A DNA stretch of 64,000 bases from the NCBI RefSeq assembly GCF_000236705.1, contig NC_016599.1, forward strand, positions 3,038,001-3,102,000. The letters are read 5' to 3'. Within the stretch, counting starts at the first letter, position 1. Every line of letters starts with the position of its first letter. This DNA is from Owenweeksia hongkongensis DSM 17368. Its GTDB lineage: Bacteria > Bacteroidota > Bacteroidia > Flavobacteriales > Schleiferiaceae. This document shows, one piece after another, positions 8,757 through 16,029 of the stretch. Below the pieces are notes generated by a model. The model saw nothing but the letters and a program-made list of their open reading frames with translations. It was not told the origin of the DNA and ran no database searches. The position numbers and the translations under genes are program-made.

Positions 8757-10115
8757 TCATATCCCGAAGCTTAGCTCAAACACCGCTCCTTCGTTTTCTT
8801 TGGATTGAACGTGGATGCGACCCTTGTGTAGCTGCATTATGTTTTTAGAAAGGGTAAGTCCAATGCCGCTACCATTTTTTCTGGTAGAGAAGAAGGGGAT
8901 AAATATGGAGTGAAGAATATCTTCTTTAATGCCCGGGCCATTGTCTTTTACAGTAATTACTATTGCTGTGCTTTCCATTTTGGCGCTTAGTATTATTTCA
9001 TCTCCTTTGCCAGCTTCCATGGCGTAAAGCGCATTTCCGATAAGGTTAATGAGCACTTGCTCCACCATTTTTTTATCGGCTCGTAAGGCCAATCTGTTGT
9101 GCAGCAAATCCTTTTTCAAACTCACTTTCTTTTTGTTGGCTTGCCCTTGCATCAGATGCATTACCGTGTCAAAAAGTTCTTCAATTGAAAACACTTCAAA
9201 ATTGGGGGCGGGCAGCTTGGTGAGTTTTCGGTATTCATCCACAAAGTTGAGCATGCCCCGGCTTCTACGGATGATGGTATTGAGGGCGAGAATAATGTCG
9301 TCAATAGTTTCGGTAGAAATTTGATCTCTGGTAAGAGGTTTCCCGGATTCATCGGTGAGCAAATCTTTTATGGTTTCTGATAGCGATGTAACTGGGGTTA
9401 CCGAATTCATTACCTCATGAGCCAAAATTCTAATGAGCTTATGCCAGGCATCAATCTCTTTTTGCTCTATTTCATTTTTCAAATCATTGAAAGAAATAAG
9501 GCGGTAATTAGTGCCCATTAGCGAAATATGATCGAGGTCGAGATAGTATTCACGAATGCCTTGCCCGCTGTCCAATTCTATTAGTTTTCGCCCTTCAAAT
9601 TTGAAATCGCCCAAAGCTTGACTAAAAGCGGGTTTTTTCTTTTGCAGCATTTCCCAGCTATGAAAATGCGGAATGCTCAGCATACTCTGTGCTGCCTGAT
9701 TGATGAGCATAATACCTCCATGATGATCCACAATTATAATCCCAAGGCGAAGGTGGTCCAGCGCCAATTTCAAAAGTTCCGATTGACTCTCACGCTGAGC
9801 CTTGCTGGTTTTTACCTTTTCAATAATATTCACGAAGCTTTCGTCCAGCTCACGAAATGAGCCGCCCAAGCTTTTGTTATTAAAGCTCACAGAAAAATCA
9901 TTGTAGTTGAGAGCATCAAAAAAGCGCTTCAACTCACGGTTTACTTTGGAAGCAAAATAGATGAGTTCCGTTATCTGAGCTATCAACAGAAGCGCTAGCA
10001 AAATTTGTGTAAACAGCAAGTGATGGTCAAACAGAAACCACGCTGAAAGCAGCACATTCGCAGCTATTAGCAATATGCGCAGTGATATGAGAAGGGCAAA
10101 TCTTTTAGAGGCCAT
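8757..10115 (-). CDS. Sensor histidine kinase (NtrB/NtrY-like), partner of the sigma-54 regulator
   Basis: Two short N-terminal membrane helices (about 5-29 and 33-55) with almost no periplasmic loop suggest sensing within the membrane or cytoplasm. A PAS-like domain follows at about 110-215. The dimerisation/phosphoacceptor helix has H233 in AHEVMNSVTP. The ATPase domain has N361 in NLIGNAL, DNGPGI (391-396) and GSGIGL (415-420). The HEVMNS form of the H-box is typical of kinases paired with NtrC-type regulators. Its 5' end overlaps the regulator's 3' end by 11 bases, so the two are translated from one leftward transcript. Confidence 0.93.
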   Translation of the reverse strand: MASKRFALLISLRILLIAANVLLSAWFLFDHHLLFTQILLALLLIAQITELIYFASKVNRELKRFFDALNYNDFSVSFNNKSLGGSFRELDESFVNIIEKVKTSKAQRESQSELLKLALDHLRLGIIIVDHHGGIMLINQAAQSMLSIPHFHSWEMLQKKKPAFSQALGDFKFEGRKLIELDSGQGIREYYLDLDHISLMGTNYRLISFNDLKNEIEQKEIDAWHKLIRILAHEVMNSVTPVTSLSETIKDLLTDESGKPLTRDQISTETIDDIILALNTIIRRSRGMLNFVDEYRKLTKLPAPNFEVFSIEELFDTVMHLMQGQANKKKVSLKKDLLHNRLALRADKKMVEQVLINLIGNALYAMEAGKGDEIILSAKMESTAIVITVKDNGPGIKEDILHSIFIPFFSTRKNGSGIGLTLSKNIMQLHKGRIHVQSKENEGAVFELSFGI

Positions 10116-11466
10116 GCTTTTCCATTCTTCGGTATAATGCCGCCCGGGTCAACCCCAAATCTTTGGCCGCTTTTGAAATGTTTCCACGATTTTTATCCAA
10201 GGCTTTTAGCACATAATGTTTCTCCATTTCTTCCAAATTTAATCCATTCGGTTGTGTGTCTGTATTGTTATTTAGGTGCAAACCTAATTGCTCAATGTAT
10301 GGTCCTTCAGCCAAAATAACCGAGCGTTCTACTGTGTGTTCCAATTCTCTGATATTTCCGGGCCAATGGTACTGATACAATTCGTCCATCGATGCAGGGC
10401 TGAATCGCAAATTACTTTTGTGATACTTGCGGCAAAATTTTTCTAAAAAGCGAACAGCTAAAATGGGAATGTCTTCCTGCCTTTCCCTTAGCGGTGGAAT
10501 TTGAATTTCAACCGTGTTTATTCGGTACAATAAATCTTGCCTAAACTGATGGTCGTTCACCATTTGGTGAATAGGCATATTGGTGGCGCTTATAAGGCGA
10601 ACATCAATTTCGCGTTCGCGGTTTTCGCCCAAGCGGGTGGCTTTTCTATTTTGTAAAACAGTAAGAAGTTTGGATTGCAGGGCCATATCCAGGTTTCCAA
10701 TTTCATCGAGAAAAAGTGTGCCTTCATTGGCGGTTTCAAATCGCCCGGCCTTATCATCCTTAGCATCGGTAAAGGCGCCTTTTTTGTGCCCAAAAAGTTC
10801 GCTTTCAAAAAGACTGTGGCTTATTGCACCAAGGTCTACGGTTATAAAGGAGTTTTTATTGCGGCCAGACATTCTATGAGCAGCTAAAGCCAATACGCTT
10901 TTCCCCGTTCCATTTTCGCCAAGCAATAAAATATTAGCATCGGTGGCGGCTACCTTTTCCAGCGTTCGCATCAGGTTTTGCATGGCTGGAGATTTCGATA
11001 TGAAATCCTCATTTTTTATGGCAATGCTGTCTTCTAGGGTGGTTTTGGTTTGTTCCAGCTGCTCTACTTTTTTGCGCTCACGGCTAAATTTCAAAGCAGT
11101 CCCGATGGTGCTTAGTAGCTTTTCATTGGTCCAAGGTTTTAGTACAAAATCATAAGCACCGCTCTTTATAGCCTGAACGGCAATTTCCACTTCTCCATAG
11201 GCCGTCATCAAAATTACCTGCGTCTCGGGGCTTACCTCTTTTATGTGTTTTAGCCAATAAATTCCTTCACGGCCATCATTCACACCTCGTTGAAAATTCA
11301 TGTCCAAAAGGATGAGGTCCGGTTGATACTTGGTTAAAAAGCTATTGATTTCTCGCGGATCAGAAGCGGTATGCACATTACTGTAATGCTGCTTCAATAG
11401 GAGTCGGGCGCTGGTGAGTATATCCTCATCATCGTCAACTATAAGTATGCAGTAACTCTTTTCCAT
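10105..11466 (-). CDS. Sigma-54-dependent two-component response regulator (NtrC class)
   Basis: A 453-residue activator with three domains. The receiver (1-120) has D11-D13, phosphoacceptor D55, T88 and K110. The AAA+ sigma-54 activation domain has Walker A GENGTGKS (183-190), GAFTDA (230-235) and Walker B LFLDEIG (251-257). A Fis-type helix-turn-helix spans about 410-453. The sigma-54 contact loop reads GAFTDA, not GAFTGA. The gene diverges from a small exported protein with a candidate -24/-12 promoter and lies near an ABC transporter pair, the likely targets. Confidence 0.95.
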   Translation of the reverse strand: MEKSYCILIVDDDEDILTSARLLLKQHYSNVHTASDPREINSFLTKYQPDLILLDMNFQRGVNDGREGIYWLKHIKEVSPETQVILMTAYGEVEIAVQAIKSGAYDFVLKPWTNEKLLSTIGTALKFSRERKKVEQLEQTKTTLEDSIAIKNEDFISKSPAMQNLMRTLEKVAATDANILLLGENGTGKSVLALAAHRMSGRNKNSFITVDLGAISHSLFESELFGHKKGAFTDAKDDKAGRFETANEGTLFLDEIGNLDMALQSKLLTVLQNRKATRLGENREREIDVRLISATNMPIHQMVNDHQFRQDLLYRINTVEIQIPPLRERQEDIPILAVRFLEKFCRKYHKSNLRFSPASMDELYQYHWPGNIRELEHTVERSVILAEGPYIEQLGLHLNNNTDTQPNGLNLEEMEKHYVLKALDKNRGNISKAAKDLGLTRAALYRRMEKHGL

Positions 11467-11577
11467 GAGGTTAAAGTAACAAAAGGTGTTCGGTACCGCA
11501 CAAGCGGGTGTTCGATAATGAACATTGTTTTTTTAGCACTAAAAATTAAACCACTGAAAACCAGTGTAAAAAGTTTG

Positions 11578-11593
11578 AGGCATAGCATGTGCC
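11578..11593 (+). promoter_or_regulatory. Candidate sigma-54 (-24/-12) promoter
   Basis: AGGCAT, five bases, then TGCC gives GG (11579-11580) and GC (11591-11592) separated by exactly 10 bases, the invariant sigma-54 spacing. Agreement with TGGCAC-N5-TTGC is partial (GGCA and TGC match). It lies about 32 bases upstream of the ATG at 11625 and next to a sigma-54 activator gene. Confidence 0.45.
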
Positions 11594-11624
11594 ATTAACT
11601 AATCACGAAAACTGAAACATAAAA

Positions 11625-11987
11625 ATGAATAACATGAAAAACATAAAAATGATGGCCTTGGCGCTACTTCTGGTTGGCCTCACCGGAGTAGCCAAAGCCG
11701 AGGGGGAAACTCCCGACAAGGCTTTAAGAACAGAAGCAAAGATGAAGTCTGAATTGTGTTTGCGCATTTCTAGCTTACAGCTAGCAGATTTTAACCTTGA
11801 GGATGAAACTGTAGATATTCACTTTCAGTGCAATGCGGAAGGCGAAGTTATAGTCCATAGCGTAGATGGTGTAAGCTGTGTTGTATCAGAATATGTTGCT
11901 AACAAGCTCAAAGGTCATAAAATGTATGTGGATGAAAATCTACAAAATGCCACACATCATGTAGAAGTGAGATATGTGGTGATTTAA
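11625..11987 (+). CDS. Small exported protein of unknown function, candidate sigma-54 target
   Basis: A 120-residue protein with a signal peptide ending near VAKAEG (residues 18-27), so the mature form is about 95 residues. I do not recognise a family. The mature part looks like one small alpha/beta domain with alternating hydrophobic residues (VDIHFQC, EVIVHSV, HHVEVRYVVI) and three cysteines (in ELCLR, FQCNA and VSCVV). The fold resembles the short TonB-C-like or energy-coupling periplasmic domains found next to sensor systems, but this is only a shape impression. It diverges from the response regulator gene, and a second in-frame ATG lies three codons in. Confidence 0.75.
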   Translation: MNNMKNIKMMALALLLVGLTGVAKAEGETPDKALRTEAKMKSELCLRISSLQLADFNLEDETVDIHFQCNAEGEVIVHSVDGVSCVVSEYVANKLKGHKMYVDENLQNATHHVEVRYVVI

Positions 11988-12293
11988 TGAAGAATCCAAA
12001 AAATCCCGAATAAGCTGTGAATCAGCGGAGTTCTTTTAGCGTTGGAAAAAAATTGGTTGTTTAATTTCAAGTTCAAGTAGCAGAATTTTAGGGTTAATCG
12101 GTTATCCTCCAACACTTTTTTCGGGATTTTTTTAAAATAAATGTTTGCCTATTTAGAAAATCAATGGAACGGGGTTTTTTTTGTAGTTCCATCTATACGA
12201 ATGGTGTGAAGTCATAAAATTAGGTTAATGAATAAATGCTGTATTAAAATCAGTACTTCAACCATCTATAATTGAATTTAATGTTTTGAGAAA
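11988..12293. other. Gene-free spacer with a 13-bp perfect inverted repeat
   Basis: 306 bases without a credible gene. AAAAAATCCCGAA (11998-12010) is exactly complementary to TTCGGGATTTTTT (12120-12132). Inside it GTTGGA and TCCAAC (around 12040 and 12109) pair again, so the ~135-base stretch could fold into a long two-step hairpin that ends in a T-run. It could be the terminator region of the upstream gene, a small RNA, or the remnant of a mobile element. Confidence 0.5.
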
Positions 12294-12515
12294 ATGAAAG
12301 AAAACAGAAAGCAAACCTTTTTACTTGTTGTGGGAATCATTTGTCTTCCGCTAACTTTATATAAATATTATACTGTGGGGCATTCGGATGTTAAATATTT
12401 GGTTGGTGTTGTTGTAAGCATATGGCTCATTTACGATTATTATATCTATAAAATGAATAAACCCCATATCCTGGAAACTTTAAAAGGAAACTTCAGAAAA
12501 GGGGACTTTGAATAA
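12294..12515 (+). CDS. Small membrane protein, unknown function
   Basis: A 73-residue ORF with two hydrophobic segments (about 9-27 and 33-50) separated by a short tyrosine-rich turn, and a lysine/glycine-rich C-terminus. It would be a two-helix inner-membrane hairpin protein. It lies alone between two inverted-repeat-rich spacers. It has an AT-rich leader and no Shine-Dalgarno sequence, as is normal here. No family is recognised. Protein-like composition and the membrane pattern support a real gene, but short length and isolation leave doubt. Confidence 0.55.
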   Translation: MKENRKQTFLLVVGIICLPLTLYKYYTVGHSDVKYLVGVVVSIWLIYDYYIYKMNKPHILETLKGNFRKGDFE

Positions 12516-12938
12516 TGAAGTAGAAGGAAAATTTTTTTAATTATTGCTGACTAAAAACCATAAAGCTAATTCCTTAGGCAAGTTTGAGATTAAATAAAAA
12601 AACAATAAGACACATAAAAATGGCTATTAATAATTGCTTGTTATCGATTATTTCGGAAAGTCTGAAAAGGTTTTCAGTTTTACAGTTAAATGCACATCAT
12701 TTAACTACTTATAGCCGAGATTCATTCGTATGGTAAAATAAATAGCTCTTTAGTGTCCTGTCATTTAGTTTGTCAGATGTCCTATGTGGAAGACGTTTGA
12801 GAGATTAAATGGAGAACTACCCTCGGCAAAACCATTTTCTCCCTGTAGGTGAATTTTGTGTTAAACGTTAAATTGCCGAGGGTTTTCTTATGCCTTATCT
12901 TAAAGCCCGAATTTGAAACTCGAAGCACTAAATAGCAA
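12516..12938. other. Gene-poor spacer with an 11-bp inverted repeat and a possible 20-codon mini-ORF
   Basis: 423 bases with no normal gene. ACCCTCGGCAA (12819-12829) is exactly complementary to TTGCCGAGGGT (12873-12883), with 43 bases between and TTTTC after it. A 20-codon ATG...TAA frame (12809-12871) is almost coextensive with the hairpin, which could be a leader/attenuator ahead of the ABC operon, a terminator, or chance. No good TAnnTTTG or -24/-12 site was found just before 12939. Confidence 0.4.
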
Positions 12939-13622
12939 ATGATAAACCTGCATCACATTTCCAAGATTTATAAAAGTAACTCGGTAGAAACTCATGCCTT
13001 GAGTAATGTCAGTCTCGAAGTTGCTGAGGGCGAGTTTGTTTCTATAATGGGCCCCAGCGGGTGTGGAAAAACAACCTTGCTAAATATCATGGGCCTCTTG
13101 GATGGCTTTGATCAAGGGCTTTACGTTTTTGATAGTACTGATGTAAAAAAGCTAAATGAGAAAAGTAGGGTGAAGCTTCGTAAGTCTAATATTGGCTTCA
13201 TCTTTCAAAATTTCAACCTCCTTGACGATCTCACCGTTTTTGAAAATATAGAATTACCGCTTGTTTACCTTGGCGTAAAAGCAGCTGAACGCAGGGAGCG
13301 TGTAAAGCAGGTTTTACACCAAATTGCTTTAGGCCACCGTATGGATCACTTCCCACATCAACTATCCGGAGGGCAGCAACAAAAAGTGGCTATTGGCCGC
13401 GCGATTGTTTCTAAGCCGCGAATTATTTTGGCTGATGAGCCCACAGGAAATCTAGACTCAGCACAGGGCAACGAAATAATGGAAACGCTGAGTAGCCTCA
13501 ACGAGGCAGGAACTACCTTGGTGATGGTGACGCACAGTATGAATGATGCGTCATACAGCAATCGCATTGTGAAATTAATGGACGGACAAATTGTAGCAGA
13601 AAAGGCATTGTTGCATGCGTAG
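12939..13622 (+). CDS. ABC transporter ATP-binding protein (LolD/MacB type)
   Basis: A 227-residue ATPase of the FtsE/LolD/MacB group. Walker A is GPSGCGKTT (38-46), the Q-loop is Q90, the signature is LSGGQ (142-146), Walker B is IILADEP (162-168) and the switch is H199. Proteins of this group drive mechanotransmission across the envelope, not classical import. It overlaps the permease gene by 8 bases, so the two form one complex. The location next to a kinase/sigma-54 regulator pair suggests induction by envelope or antimicrobial stress, which is inference. Confidence 0.95.
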   Translation: MINLHHISKIYKSNSVETHALSNVSLEVAEGEFVSIMGPSGCGKTTLLNIMGLLDGFDQGLYVFDSTDVKKLNEKSRVKLRKSNIGFIFQNFNLLDDLTVFENIELPLVYLGVKAAERRERVKQVLHQIALGHRMDHFPHQLSGGQQQKVAIGRAIVSKPRIILADEPTGNLDSAQGNEIMETLSSLNEAGTTLVMVTHSMNDASYSNRIVKLMDGQIVAEKALLHA

Positions 13623-16029
13623 CCTTAGATTAAAATTTGCACTACGGGCCTTGTGGAAAAACAAGCTTTATGCAGGGCTCAATATTCTCGGTTTGGCCAT
13701 CGGTCTGGCGGTCAGTATTATCATTTATTTGTACTTACAAAGTGAGCTGAGTTATGATAAAAATGTGGATGATTACCGTGACATTTACCGCATTGAGTCT
13801 GAGTTTGACCTAAACAATAAGCGTGAGCAATTTGCAGGGACCAGCCTGAGTTTGGGGCCACTTTTGGCAGAAGAATTTGATTATGTAAATAATTATACCC
13901 GACTCCATCACATAGAGGTGAATGTGCTTTTTCAATATGAGGATAAGCGCTTTTATGAAGAAAATATAGCGGTGGCCGACAGCCATTTCTTTGAGGTTTT
14001 CAAAGTTCCATTTTTAGCAGGAGAGCATGGCCACTGCCTTGCTGATCCTTACACTATAGTTGTGACACAATCATTTGCAGAAAGGTATTTTGGCAATGAA
14101 AATCCTATCGGAAAAGTGATCAGCACCAATAATCACGATTATACCATCACGGGTTTGATGGAAAATTGGCCTGCAAACACTCATCATAAATTTGATGCCG
14201 TGCTCAGCGCATTTTATGACCCCATAGAGAGAGAAACACAAATCCAGACTCTTTGGAATGTGGAGGCTTACACTTTCGTGGAAGTGGACGGATCAACTGA
14301 AGCCATTCATTTGGAAGAAGACTTCGTGGATTTTTACGATAAGTACATGAAGGAAGTGGGAGAGAATTTTGGAGGTTTTTATGACATCACACTTACTCGA
14401 CTCGATAATATCCACTTTGGCAGAAACCTGCAATATGACCGAGCTCGCGGTGATGTATCTTACCTATATGCCTTTGGTGGAATCGGAATTTTGATATTGA
14501 TACTTGCCTGTATAAACTATATAAACATGGCCACAGCGCGTGGTTTGGAGCGGGTGAAGGAAGCCGGAATGCGAAAAATACTGGGTAGTAGCTCGGCTGA
14601 AATCCGTAGCCTGATATTTTTTGAATCTGTGCTTTTGAGTTTGCTAGCACTCTTCCTTGCTTTTGTTATGGTGGAGGTGGTTTTTGAGCTTACACCATTC
14701 AATACTATCCTTAACAAGGATTTGGCGCTTGACTTTGAAAGATTTCCTGCACTGTGGTGGTTGCCGCTGGTTTTGGCGGTGGCAGTTGGATTGCTGAGCG
14801 GTTTGTATCCAGCCATTAACATGAGCAAGGTTCCTGCTATGGCGGCCATTCGAGGAGGTTATAAGTCTGCTCCACATAGTATTTGGATGCGAAAAAGTTT
14901 GGTGGGATTCCAATTTTGTATTTCCGTAGCCGTGGTGATTACAGCTCTGCTGATGTACCGTCAGATGGAGTATGTGCGTACCAAGGATTTAGGTTTTAAT
15001 AAGGAAGACATCATCCTTATTCCGATAAGGGATAGGGACAGTACCCTCGAGGCGCAAATTCCGCTTTTGCGAAAGCAGCTTGGTAAATTGAAGGAAGTGA
15101 TTGCTACTTCTCATGCCACCCGTGTTCCTGGTAGTGATTTGGAAAGAACTCTCATGAGTATAGAGGATGAGGATGGGGAGTTTGCAAAAGGTGTGGTGGA
15201 TATGATGCGGGTGGGTCTTAATTATATGCCCACCATGGAAATTGAAGTATTGGATGGTCGTGATTTTAATAAAAGTGATTTTGGCGCAAGCCGGCAAAAA
15301 GTGCTGGTAAATGAGGAGTTGCTGACTTACATGAATTGGAAGGATGCCAAAGGGAAGTTGCTAAAGTGGGGATATGATGAAGATGGGGTGGAGCTCTACG
15401 AAATGGAAGTAATTGGGGTGGTAGAGAATTTTAATTCACACTCCTTGCATGATGCCATTGAGCCCACGGTAATCTTACTTCAGGAGGATAATTACGGTGT
15501 GATGCACGTACGCGTGGACAGCGAAGATTTGGTGTCCGCAGTGAATAAGATTGAGAAAATATGGAGCCGGGCTGATCCGAATAATCCTTTTCAGTTTTCC
15601 TTTTTGAATAAAGACCTAATGAAATTGTATGAAAATGAACACCGCCAAAGTCGATTGATTTTATACCTCACGTACTTGGCAATTTTCATCAGTTTCCTTG
15701 GATTAACGGGTTTGGCTTCTTTCACTACCAATTTGCGTACACGTGAAATTGGCATCCGAAAAGTGCTGGGTGCCGATGTGTATCAAATGGTGAATTTGAT
15801 CTTTAGAGAGATGTTGACATTAATTATTTTATCCGTGCTTTTGGCGGTACCACTGGCTTATGGGCTTATTACAGTTTGGTTAGACGGATTTGCATACTCC
15901 GCTCAATTAGATCCTTTTATCTTCGCGATTTCTGTGGCACTTGCGGTGCTGCTGGCCTATCTTATTGTAACCTACCATTCTGTAAAGGTGGCGCGTGGCA
16001 ATCCGGTGGATATTCTCAAATATGAATAA
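13615..16029 (+). CDS. ABC transporter permease with two FtsX units (MacB-like)
   Basis: An 804-residue permease. A first helix (about 20-44) precedes a large periplasmic MacB_PCD-like domain (about 45-285) and three helices (about 287-400) with the cytoplasmic RVKEAGMRKILGSS coupling motif. A second unit follows: a helix at about 430-450, a periplasmic domain to about 675, and three C-terminal helices with the parallel TREIGIRKVLGA motif. The duplicated 4-helix layout is the common Bacteroidota form in which both halves of the dimer are fused. It works with the ATPase encoded immediately upstream. No HlyD or TolC partner is present nearby, so efflux through an outer-membrane channel is not implied. 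Confidence 0.94.
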   Translation: MRSLRLKFALRALWKNKLYAGLNILGLAIGLAVSIIIYLYLQSELSYDKNVDDYRDIYRIESEFDLNNKREQFAGTSLSLGPLLAEEFDYVNNYTRLHHIEVNVLFQYEDKRFYEENIAVADSHFFEVFKVPFLAGEHGHCLADPYTIVVTQSFAERYFGNENPIGKVISTNNHDYTITGLMENWPANTHHKFDAVLSAFYDPIERETQIQTLWNVEAYTFVEVDGSTEAIHLEEDFVDFYDKYMKEVGENFGGFYDITLTRLDNIHFGRNLQYDRARGDVSYLYAFGGIGILILILACINYINMATARGLERVKEAGMRKILGSSSAEIRSLIFFESVLLSLLALFLAFVMVEVVFELTPFNTILNKDLALDFERFPALWWLPLVLAVAVGLLSGLYPAINMSKVPAMAAIRGGYKSAPHSIWMRKSLVGFQFCISVAVVITALLMYRQMEYVRTKDLGFNKEDIILIPIRDRDSTLEAQIPLLRKQLGKLKEVIATSHATRVPGSDLERTLMSIEDEDGEFAKGVVDMMRVGLNYMPTMEIEVLDGRDFNKSDFGASRQKVLVNEELLTYMNWKDAKGKLLKWGYDEDGVELYEMEVIGVVENFNSHSLHDAIEPTVILLQEDNYGVMHVRVDSEDLVSAVNKIEKIWSRADPNNPFQFSFLNKDLMKLYENEHRQSRLILYLTYLAIFISFLGLTGLASFTTNLRTREIGIRKVLGADVYQMVNLIFREMLTLIILSVLLAVPLAYGLITVWLDGFAYSAQLDPFIFAISVALAVLLAYLIVTYHSVKVARGNPVDILKYE

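Follow-up and report, generated by a model that had tools for sequence, protein, structure and literature searches.

A predicted sigma-54 two-component locus with two structured RNAs and a candidate susC antisense seed in Owenweeksia hongkongensis and its relatives

Introduction

In the Enterobacteriaceae, the NtrC-type two-component system QseE/QseF (GlrK/GlrR) activates a small-RNA gene, glmY, with the aid of sigma-54 and upstream sites. The system is tied to cell-envelope homeostasis, has the periplasmic lipoprotein QseG as a partner and, in Proteus mirabilis, shares one operon with glmY (PMC6075780, PMC8745638). As far as the available parts of these sources describe QseEF-GlmY, the locus analyzed here is similar in that a sigma-54 two-component locus would drive a small RNA with a link to the envelope; its small exported protein (SEP) can be set beside QseG by description only. 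It differs in having other RNAs, which lack an Rfam match, a predicted target in susC, and an ABC transporter downstream.

The FopS sRNAs of Bacteroides thetaiotaomicron comprise 14 members, each about 65-70 nt long and made from sigma-ABfr promoters. They respond to bile salts, bind susC mRNAs near the start codon and repress the translation of SusC (PMC11697453). One of the RNAs described below, RNA2, is likewise predicted to pair near a susC start codon, a likeness drawn from the available description of FopS and not from alignment. However, only one or two seed-bearing RNAs occur per genome here, and the promoter is of the sigma-54 type and belongs to a two-component locus. Rfp36 of Flavobacterium psychrophilum is a putative regulatory RNA under a sigma-54-type (SM4) promoter; SM4 genes in that species include envelope-stress functions, and the available part of the source states no two-component link for the RNA (PMC9723704). 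Compared by description, it shares with the present RNAs a flavobacterial host and a sigma-54-type promoter, which is a predicted one here.

Two further systems share parts of the arrangement. In Vibrio, the sigma-54 response regulator LuxO drives several RNAs, the Qrr RNAs, that share a seed, but that system serves quorum sensing, has other targets and is not known to include an ABC transporter or exported protein. In the enterobacterial ZraPSR system, sigma-54 two-component genes are divergent from the gene for a small exported protein; the SEP, in contrast, is modelled as an alpha/beta, TonB/TolA-like protein, and the conserved output of the present locus is predicted to be RNA. No published description of this circuit was found in the open-licence literature.

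Locus organization and the signalling genes

The window, a 64,000-nucleotide stretch of the O. hongkongensis DSM 17368 genome, encodes on its minus strand a histidine kinase of 452 aa (8757..10115; weak PAS, H-box His233, HATPase_c) and an NtrC-type response regulator of 453 aa (10105..11466). The layout proposed in the initial annotation holds in each particular: the two genes overlap by 11 bases, the regulator is NtrC-type by its domains, a 120-residue protein with a signal-like start is encoded divergently, and an ABC transporter pair with a duplicated FtsX permease follows. The tandem operators, the two structured RNAs and the 601-bp insertion between those RNAs were absent from that annotation. 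Both RNAs sit between the small open reading frame and the ABC genes.

The receiver (Asp55), sigma-54 AAA+ and Fis-type HTH domains of the regulator all score above Pfam cut-offs. Its Walker A motif is GENGTGKS, and where GAFTGA was looked for, its loop reads GAFTDA, a variant that is common and functional. Genome-wide, there is one match to the sigma-54 DNA-binding domain and there are six strong sigma-54 activator domains. Orthologues of the regulator (at least 62% identity) are present in 20 of 88 family genomes; those compared are 62-76% identical to the protein in the window, except for that of genome G026, at 99%.

BceS-type intramembrane-sensing kinases have two transmembrane helices joined by a very short extracellular loop and adjoin an FtsX-type ABC transporter. 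The kinase described here has two hydrophobic segments (residues ~4-30 and ~31-58) with almost no loop between them, and ABC genes are present at the locus, as in BceS-type sensors; the resemblance is one of topology only. The transporter consists of an ATPase (12939..13622, plus strand), for which the best NCBIfam models, DarD and L_ocin_972_ABC, are both below cut-off, and an 804-aa duplicated MacB_PCD/FtsX permease (13615..16029, plus strand), which is ADOP/DarB-like, also below cut-off. Assignment as a darobactin exporter was rejected, with DarD at 286.5 of 375 bits and DarB at 162.5 of 700, under the NCBIfam cut-offs.

Tandem operators and the sigma-54 promoter

Upstream of the regulator lie two palindromic candidate operators (upstream activating sites) of the form TGTTCG-N4-CGAACA, TGTTCGGTACCGCACA at 11487..11502 and TGTTCGATAATGAACA at 11509..11524 (no strand assigned), the second starting 22 bp after the first. 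Every one of the 20 family genomes that encode an orthologue of the regulator has such a pair, 22 bp apart. It scores 19-23 of 24 at these loci, which none of 200 shuffles per locus attained, and 22 is the best spacing in 20/20 when spacings of 17-40 are tried. The palindrome by itself is not enriched in the O. hongkongensis genome (49 places with at most two mismatches vs 222 for the reversed control), but the only 22-bp tandem pair among them is at this locus. From this position and co-occurrence, we infer that the neighboring regulator binds these predicted operators.

Downstream of the operators, the GG-N10-GC motif to which the initial annotation had pointed (11579-11592) is found inside a -24/-12 element, AGGCATAGCATGTGCC, at 11578..11593 on the plus strand. 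GG-N10-G[C/T/A] follows the operators in 20/20 loci, with GC as the -12 dinucleotide in 15 and GT or GA in five. Its distance from the operators is largely conserved: 14 loci have the element at 54 bp and two at 53 bp, which makes 16 of 20 at 53-54 bp, against 0.20 expected from shuffles. The other four have it at 65 bp (one locus) or 87 bp (three loci), distances that equal 54 plus 11 and 33. A TAnnTTTG promoter, the competing possibility named earlier, has no exact match in 19 of 20 loci within 120 nt downstream of the operators (140 nt for one locus). Just past the predicted start near 11604 there is a conserved transcript 5' element (11607..11626, plus strand; consensus GAAAACTAAARCRTAAAAAT), the core of which is matched in 14 of 20 loci, eight of them without the small open reading frame.

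In the matrix scan that had been suggested as a check, the site taken as a single sequence does not clearly exceed chance, ranking 49th of about 128,000 window positions with a sigma-54 matrix that was written from consensus frequencies and whose ranks are only indicative; it is the comparison among loci that supports it. The same DNA ranks 4th on the minus strand, and it may be that the element serves the minus-strand regulator operon, or both strands, with the operators used for autoregulation. The higher score there is attributable to the near symmetry of GGC...GCC. Some relatives share this symmetry (for example L082, L083, L084, L085 and L087), but L027, L028, L032, L080, L081 and L086, among others, lack it, and in these the plus-strand form nonetheless keeps its distance from the operators. 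Minus-strand use would also place the operators downstream of the start, and the conserved 5' element begins where a plus-strand transcript is expected. We regard this reading as very improbable. By comparison across the 20 loci, the proposed -24/-12 site is a well-supported candidate, and so is a predicted sigma-54 two-component circuit that directs transcription of the plus strand.

The small exported protein

The first gene after the promoter in the window encodes the SEP (11625..11987, plus strand; 120 aa), which has a signal-like N-terminal segment. An AF2 model of the protein is alpha/beta, with the order helix-strand-strand-helix-strand, and residues 33-120 are modelled as resembling a TonB/TolA C-terminal domain. 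In a VIA comparison, C-terminal domains of TonB, FusB or TolA fill the top 23 rows at Z 5.6-7.7, and the row after them drops to 4.2, while the best Foldseek match has an E value of 3.1e-3, with none at E<=0.001. A Pfam search gave no match, TonB_C included. The SEP was not taken to be a TonB protein: its 120 residues comprise a signal-like segment, a short linker and the domain, and not the N-terminal anchor and proline-rich linker architecture. ZraP, a helical metal-binding repeat protein that forms a helical hairpin, was rejected on the missing Pfam match and the modelled fold.

The initial annotation had offered the exported protein as a possible sensor, periplasmic buffer or output of an envelope-stress circuit. 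The protein could indeed be the real output, as a ZraP/CpxP-like buffer or sensor partner, with the RNAs as ordinary 3' untranslated structure and terminators; the divergent kinase and regulator genes recall zraSR-zraP, and the SEP comes first after the promoter in the nine of 20 regulator genomes where it was detected. However, it was not detected in the other 11, where the regulator and its operators are retained together with the promoter and RNA1. Furthermore, its sequence is 21-38% identical among relatives (G026, at 98%, is not counted) where the cores of RNA1 and RNA2 are nearly invariant, and the modelled fold is unlike the ZraP hairpin. This explanation is therefore unlikely, and the SEP is probably not the chief output. 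The earlier proposal is supported in part: there is predicted sigma-54 two-component control, and an envelope role fits the predicted target, the outer-membrane importer SusC.

RNA1

RNA1 (11999..12133, plus strand) is a predicted structured RNA with a core hairpin, GTTCAAGTAGCAG, and a closing terminator-like stem and U-run. It is kept, at 124-165 nt, in 20/20 regulator genomes along with the promoter. Covariance model R3 finds it in 19, and the variant carried by the 20th was seen by eye; model R1, run on all 88 family genomes, missed the three g13 genomes and G024. A search with R3 of 395 genomes of the order, a set not certain to include all 88 family genomes, gave beyond the locus only marginal matches (four places in three genomes outside the family, E 0.014-0.073), which were rejected, with none of ten locus proteins nearby.

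Within the compensatory stems, both sides have changed in 9 of 34 pairs vs 2.6 in shuffles. Stem P3 was excluded from the RNA1 models, since MAFFT alignments of the whole RNA misplaced it, and was tested apart on 14 of the 20 loci, omitting L025 and L082 as near-duplicates and L030, L031, L202 and L206 as divergent; its arms average -15.8 kcal/mol with their own partner vs -6.9 across genera. In Rfam (release 15), window positions 11400-13100 give one match, to SNORD63, which is below cut-off (E 0.84) and overlaps neither RNA, and there is no match at E<=0.1 in L027, L030, L032, L198, L199, L202 or L081. Within the scope of that release and the open-licence literature, RNA1 and RNA2 appear to be previously undescribed structured RNAs.

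A target for RNA1 was sought by full complementarity to TTCTGCTACTTGAA (at most one mismatch) in 18 genomes, which gave 53 places; 18 of these are RNA1 itself, and the remaining 35 are fewer than the 59 given by the reversed control. Among 115 start regions of its own genome, the best partner of whole RNA1 is the start of the regulator gene (z -3.0), and susC reaches z -1.8; neither was counted as a target. RNA1 is well supported, by conservation and covariation, as an independently conserved structured RNA.

One possible mode of action is in cis. RNA1, and RNA2 with it, may be conditional terminators of the ABC operon, where a ligand or protein on the invariant RNA1 core would permit polymerase passage. 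In 20/20 genomes, RNA1 is placed after the promoter and ahead of the ABC ATPase gene, and its core is aptamer-like, with near-invariant loops within covarying stems. In G022 (L088), about 31 nt separate the end of the RNA1 U-run from the ABC start codon, which gives scant space for a second promoter. On the other hand, no U-run follows RNA1 in the two g13 loci whose full sequence was read, and Rfam offers no matching family, whether a riboswitch or of another kind. The cis reading is a serious contender, although RNA2, considered next, fits it poorly, and we give it somewhat less than even weight.

RNA2 and its predicted susC target

RNA2 (12817..12887, plus strand) is a hairpin with a terminator-like stem. 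It carries a candidate antisense seed, GTAGGTGAATTTTGTGTTAAACGTTA (12845..12870, plus strand; core 12854-12868), which is the reverse complement of a susC start region save for a one-base gap and one change. In eight of the nine family genomes with the exact seed, one susC gene has the seed's exact reverse complement 9-10 nt ahead of its ATG; the exception is G005, where RNA2 is present and the exact susC motif is absent. The 15-mer, ACGTTTAACACAAAA, occurs at 22 places in these nine genomes (nine RNA2 loci, eight susC start regions and five RNA3 loci) and is absent from the other 79 of the 88. Its reversed control occurs nowhere in those nine and once in another genome. Such a match to susC elsewhere in the genome is not explained by a purely cis element, and it counts against the conditional-terminator reading.

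The RNA2 loop ranks susC first among 115 start regions of its own genome (z -6.4), and pairing computed in eight genomes spans 17-24 contiguous nucleotides of the susC leader, just before the start codon. In a whole-RNA duplex test against 261 control start regions, susC was equalled by one or two controls in two of the eight genomes. The near invariance of the seed means that cross-genome pairing runs are often as long as those within a genome, and seed-target covariation is accordingly weak. A possible helix joining the RNA2 seed to the SEP leader, judged by eye, was rejected because it is broken in L026.

RNA2 was not found by model R2 in genus g7 (seven genomes), G022, G024 or G030, and for that reason the conserved core of the predicted circuit is RNA1, not susC repression. 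Variant forms of the seed are noted for G024, G028 and G030. The gap between RNA1 and RNA2 is 10-82 nt in some other genomes and 683 nt in O. hongkongensis, owing to a 601-bp insertion (12143..12743, no strand assigned) with 10-bp TAAAATAAAT repeats at its ends and an open reading frame at 12294-12515, so that co-transcription is doubtful there. The near-identical G026 lacks the insertion.

In five genomes, the seed is repeated at an unlinked RNA-like locus, RNA3. A sigma-54-like promoter (GGYAY-N6-TG[C/A]) precedes the seed in 5/5, with a chance of 0.001-0.006 each in shuffles. The RNA3 loci are without the operators, and a link to this regulator is therefore unsupported.

A model for the circuit

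We consider it likely that the locus encodes a local envelope-signalling circuit with noncoding RNAs as its principal outputs and with RNA2 repressing susC. The intramembrane-type kinase would phosphorylate the NtrC-type regulator, which would occupy the two palindromic operators on one DNA face and activate sigma-54 polymerase at the -24/-12 site. The predicted plus-strand transcript would include the optional exported TonB-C-like protein and then RNA1, with read-through into RNA2 and some ABC-transporter mRNA where the RNA1-RNA2 gap is 10-82 nt. RNA2 would then pair with the susC mRNA leader and block translation, and envelope stress, the presumed signal, may in this way lead to less SusCD importer being made.

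A more elaborate scheme, which we hold to be rather doubtful, would shut off TonB-dependent import at two levels. A single sigma-54 transcript would yield both an antisense RNA that stops SusC synthesis and a free periplasmic TonB-C-like decoy that occupies TonB boxes, and RNA1 would represent a new class of riboregulator that sets read-through to RNA2 and the ABC transporter.

The exact seed-target pair, the conserved operators and the natural variants without the SEP, RNA2 or RNA3 make each step of the likely circuit testable. If true, it would unite features so far described apart, in the enterobacterial QseEF-GlmY system and in the FopS RNAs of Bacteroides, and it would provide, in marine Bacteroidota, a full path from a membrane kinase through operators and a sigma-54 promoter to a noncoding RNA and an outer-membrane importer.

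Gene order and the kinase

All genes and coordinates of the initial annotation proved correct on re-examination. The kinase (8757-10115) and the regulator (10105-11466) lie on the minus strand, their frames overlapping by 11 bases as it had reported. They diverge from a 120-residue small exported protein, SEP (11625-11987), an ABC ATPase (12939-13622) and an FtsX permease (13615-16029). Contig extent permitting, the relatives examined retain the arrangement kinase-regulator, promoter, (SEP), ABC ATPase, FtsX permease, and M61 and M13 peptidase genes are often found 3' of it. In the genus g13 (loci L030, L031 and L206), two tandem permease genes follow the ATPase, versus one in the window. An orthologue of the regulator is present in 20 of the 88 family genomes (identity at least 62%, E < 1e-178); in the window, its sigma-54 contact loop reads GAFTDA, not GAFTGA.

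Two hydrophobic segments, with hardly any loop separating them, are found in the kinase, as in the five relatives inspected. Intramembrane-sensing kinases that partner FtsX-type ABC transporters (Bce-like) share such a two-segment topology. Given this likeness, it may be that the signal, possibly envelope stress, arrives via the ABC transporter, and a phosphorelay would then carry it from kinase to regulator.

Operators and the predicted sigma-54 promoter

The GG-N10-GC element at 11579-11592, proposed previously as a -24/-12 site, is present as described. With an approximate promoter matrix, it reaches an unremarkable rank of 49 in the window when read on the plus strand. The near-symmetry of the motif gives the minus strand a better rank, 4; one sequence is not decisive. 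DNA upstream of the regulator orthologues was read in all 20 loci, two of which (L025 and L082) are near-duplicates of others. Two 16-bp palindromes resembling TGTTCG-N4-CGAACA are found in every one. The pairs were first scored at 22-bp spacing only; when spacings of 17-40 were tried, 22 was best in 20/20 loci, with 19-23 of 24 positions matching, and no pair was equalled in shuffles (200 per locus, 20 loci). The palindrome itself is not enriched in the window's own genome (49 places, versus 222 for a reversed control), and among those 49 listed places, with at most two mismatches, the tandem pair occurs only here.

Downstream of these operators, the spacing to a GG-N10-G[C/T/A] element is 54 bp in 14 of the loci, 53 bp in two, 65 bp in one and 87 bp in three; shuffling predicts 0.20 of 20 loci at 53-54 bp. 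The loci with 65 and 87 bp each had two candidate elements, and those also reading GGCAC and TTG were picked; these two distances exceed 54 by 11 and 33 bp, each a whole number of helical turns. The -12 GC is retained in 15 of the 20 loci, with GT in L026, L030 and L088 and GA in L031 and L206. Just downstream of the expected start, a block, GAAAACTAAARCRT, is matched in 14 of the 20, eight of which lack the small ORF. From this comparison, the candidate site of the initial annotation is a well-supported predicted sigma-54 promoter directed to 11625. The regulator would bind the upstream DNA and transcription would start from this promoter.

RNA1

After SEP lies RNA1 (11999-12133, plus strand), a closed structure of 124-165 nt (135 in the window) made up of P1, one small hairpin, P3 and the core hairpin, which carries GTTCAAGTAGCAG...TAGGGTT. 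P1 is terminator-like with a U-run, g13 loci excepted. RNA1 begins about 40 nt past the -12 element in six of seven genomes of the genus g7, and about 110 nt past it in G019. Across 14 sequences, 97% of cells pair. Both-side changes occur in 9 of 34 pairs (mean 2.6 in 500 shuffles, none reaching 9), in an alignment that was fitted to the tested structure and hence is biased in its favour; shifting the pairing partners reduces the count. The P3 arms vary between genera but pair, with a mean of -15.8 kcal/mol for own partners (n=14) and -6.9 kcal/mol across genera (n=140, best -14.7).

The RNA1 core pattern (21 fixed bases) occurs at 10 loci in GTDB 220 contigs, labelled Owenweeksia, Cryomorphaceae, Phaeocystidibacter, or just Bacteroidia/Flavobacteriia. 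The search model R1 detects RNA1 in 16 of the 88 family genomes, and likewise in 16 among the 395 order genomes. The core model R3 finds it in 19 family genomes, each of which has the regulator, and gives marginal matches in three others; G024, the 20th regulator genome, has a variant core by eye. RNA1 is single-copy in each genome. RNA1 is kept without RNA2 and SEP, which makes it, rather than control of susC, the circuit's most conserved output. The strongest rival reading is a cis role of RNA1 for the ABC operon.

Whole RNA1 pairs best with the start region of its own regulator (window 11466; z -3.0 among 115 start regions), perhaps by chance. Five of the seven g7 genomes (L081, L082, L084, L085 and L087) show by eye a very short, conserved hydrophobic ORF (e.g. 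MIILVFLIFIGVLISKLF) downstream of RNA1 and directly 5' of the ABC gene.

RNA2 and its predicted target

A second hairpin, RNA2 (12817-12887, plus strand; 71 nt), follows RNA1 at a distance of 10-82 nt in those nine relatives that have coordinates for both. In the window the gap is 683 nt and holds a 601-bp insertion (12143-12743), with 10-bp TAAAATAAAT direct repeats at its ends, bearing a 73-residue hydrophobic ORF (12294-12515), and missing from the near-identical genome G026. The RNA2 model, R2, is strong in eight genomes, seven of whose sequences built it, and weak in two g13 loci (E 0.23 and 0.24); it finds no RNA2 in seven g7 loci, G022, G024 or G030. By eye, hairpins whose loops are changed stand in its place in both G024 and G030: TTTGAGTTAACGT in G024 (L202), where RNA1 is also divergent, and TTGAGTGTTAAACGTG in G030 (L206), unlike its g13 relatives. 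Nine genomes carry the loop TTTTGTGTTAAACGT exactly, and G028 has it with one base different.

R2 also gives two further weak places in the window's genome (E 0.08 and 0.96), one being the reverse complement of a SusC/RagA gene leader (L114). The exact seed 15-mer occurs at 22 places in nine of the 88 family genomes and is absent from the remaining 79; the reversed 15-mer has one match, in G087. All 13 places outside RNA2 were read: eight are susC start regions (G000, G026, G027, G003, G004, G023, G029 and G031), with the motif ending 9-10 nt 5' of the ATG, and five belong to a second, RNA-like locus termed RNA3. The exact susC motif was not found in G005, where RNA2 is present, nor the exact target 15-mer in G030. 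From N-terminal similarity we take the eight susC genes to be one orthologous gene. In O. hongkongensis it encodes 1100 residues, exceeds the TIGR04056 cut-off and has a SusD-like gene after it; the neighbours, common to all three loci inspected, are, in our assignment, O-antigen-ligase-like, RNase HII-like and EF-P-like. Contiguous pairing, G-U allowed, spans 17-24 nt in each genome. Against 115 start regions, the RNA2 loop ranks susC first (z -6.4; next -2.4). In whole-RNA2 duplexes, susC is better than all 261 control regions in six of the eight genomes; in G026 one control region does at least as well, and in G029 two do. RNA2 would repress susC.

RNA3 repeats the seed in G000, G026, G003, G004 and G023, with an ordinary terminator hairpin downstream on the same strand; an aldehyde-dehydrogenase-like ORF is close by in all but one of the five 3-kb loci. 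GGYAY-N6-TG[C/A] lies 47-58 nt 5' of the seed in all five (shuffle chance 0.001-0.006 each), a count in which G000 and G026 are close relatives. No operators like those of RNA1 were seen upstream in the five loci, and RNA3 may hence depend on a different activator. The site of such an activator is possibly the inverted repeat GAAATTT-TGAC-AAATTTC, found 5' of RNA3 in G000 and G026 (L157/L158).

The exported protein

SEP is detected in nine of the 88 family genomes, each carrying the regulator, and not in the 11 other regulator genomes (seven g7, G022, G005, G024 and G030); G005 has an 82-residue ORF in its place. The window's protein has no Pfam or NCBIfam match. An AlphaFold model from eight sequences has a mean pLDDT of at least 90 in each ten-residue block from residue 41 on. 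Each of the 23 highest VIA matches is a C-terminal domain of TonB, FusB or TolA, with Z 5.6-7.7 and 74-85 residues; the row after them has Z 4.2, and the Foldseek top match is a TonB domain (E 3.1e-3). These Z values, all below 8, are modest, but the matches agree throughout. The presence of a soluble TonB-C-like domain next to an RNA predicted to act against a TonB-dependent importer hints at a shared purpose but does not prove one. G004 has a SEP paralogue (L033:9418-9765) in a 19-kb stretch where no other protein of the locus is encoded.

Relation to known systems

The computational evidence comprises a conserved promoter with operators, two structured RNAs, and seed-target complementarity by the start codon. 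In enterobacteria, glmY is activated by QseF from sigma-54 promoters via upstream sites (PMC6075780), Bacteroides susC start regions are blocked by FopS RNAs (PMC11697453), and F. psychrophilum has a putative RNA, Rfp36, whose promoter is of the sigma-54 type (PMC9723704). The predicted sigma-54 promoter and upstream sites resemble QseF-glmY, the predicted pairing of RNA2 at the susC start region resembles FopS, and a predicted RNA under a sigma-54-type promoter resembles Rfp36. The DNA of RNA1 and RNA2 has no match in Rfam. The locus thus joins elements of the QseF-glmY, FopS and Rfp36 kind, with RNAs outside the Rfam families.
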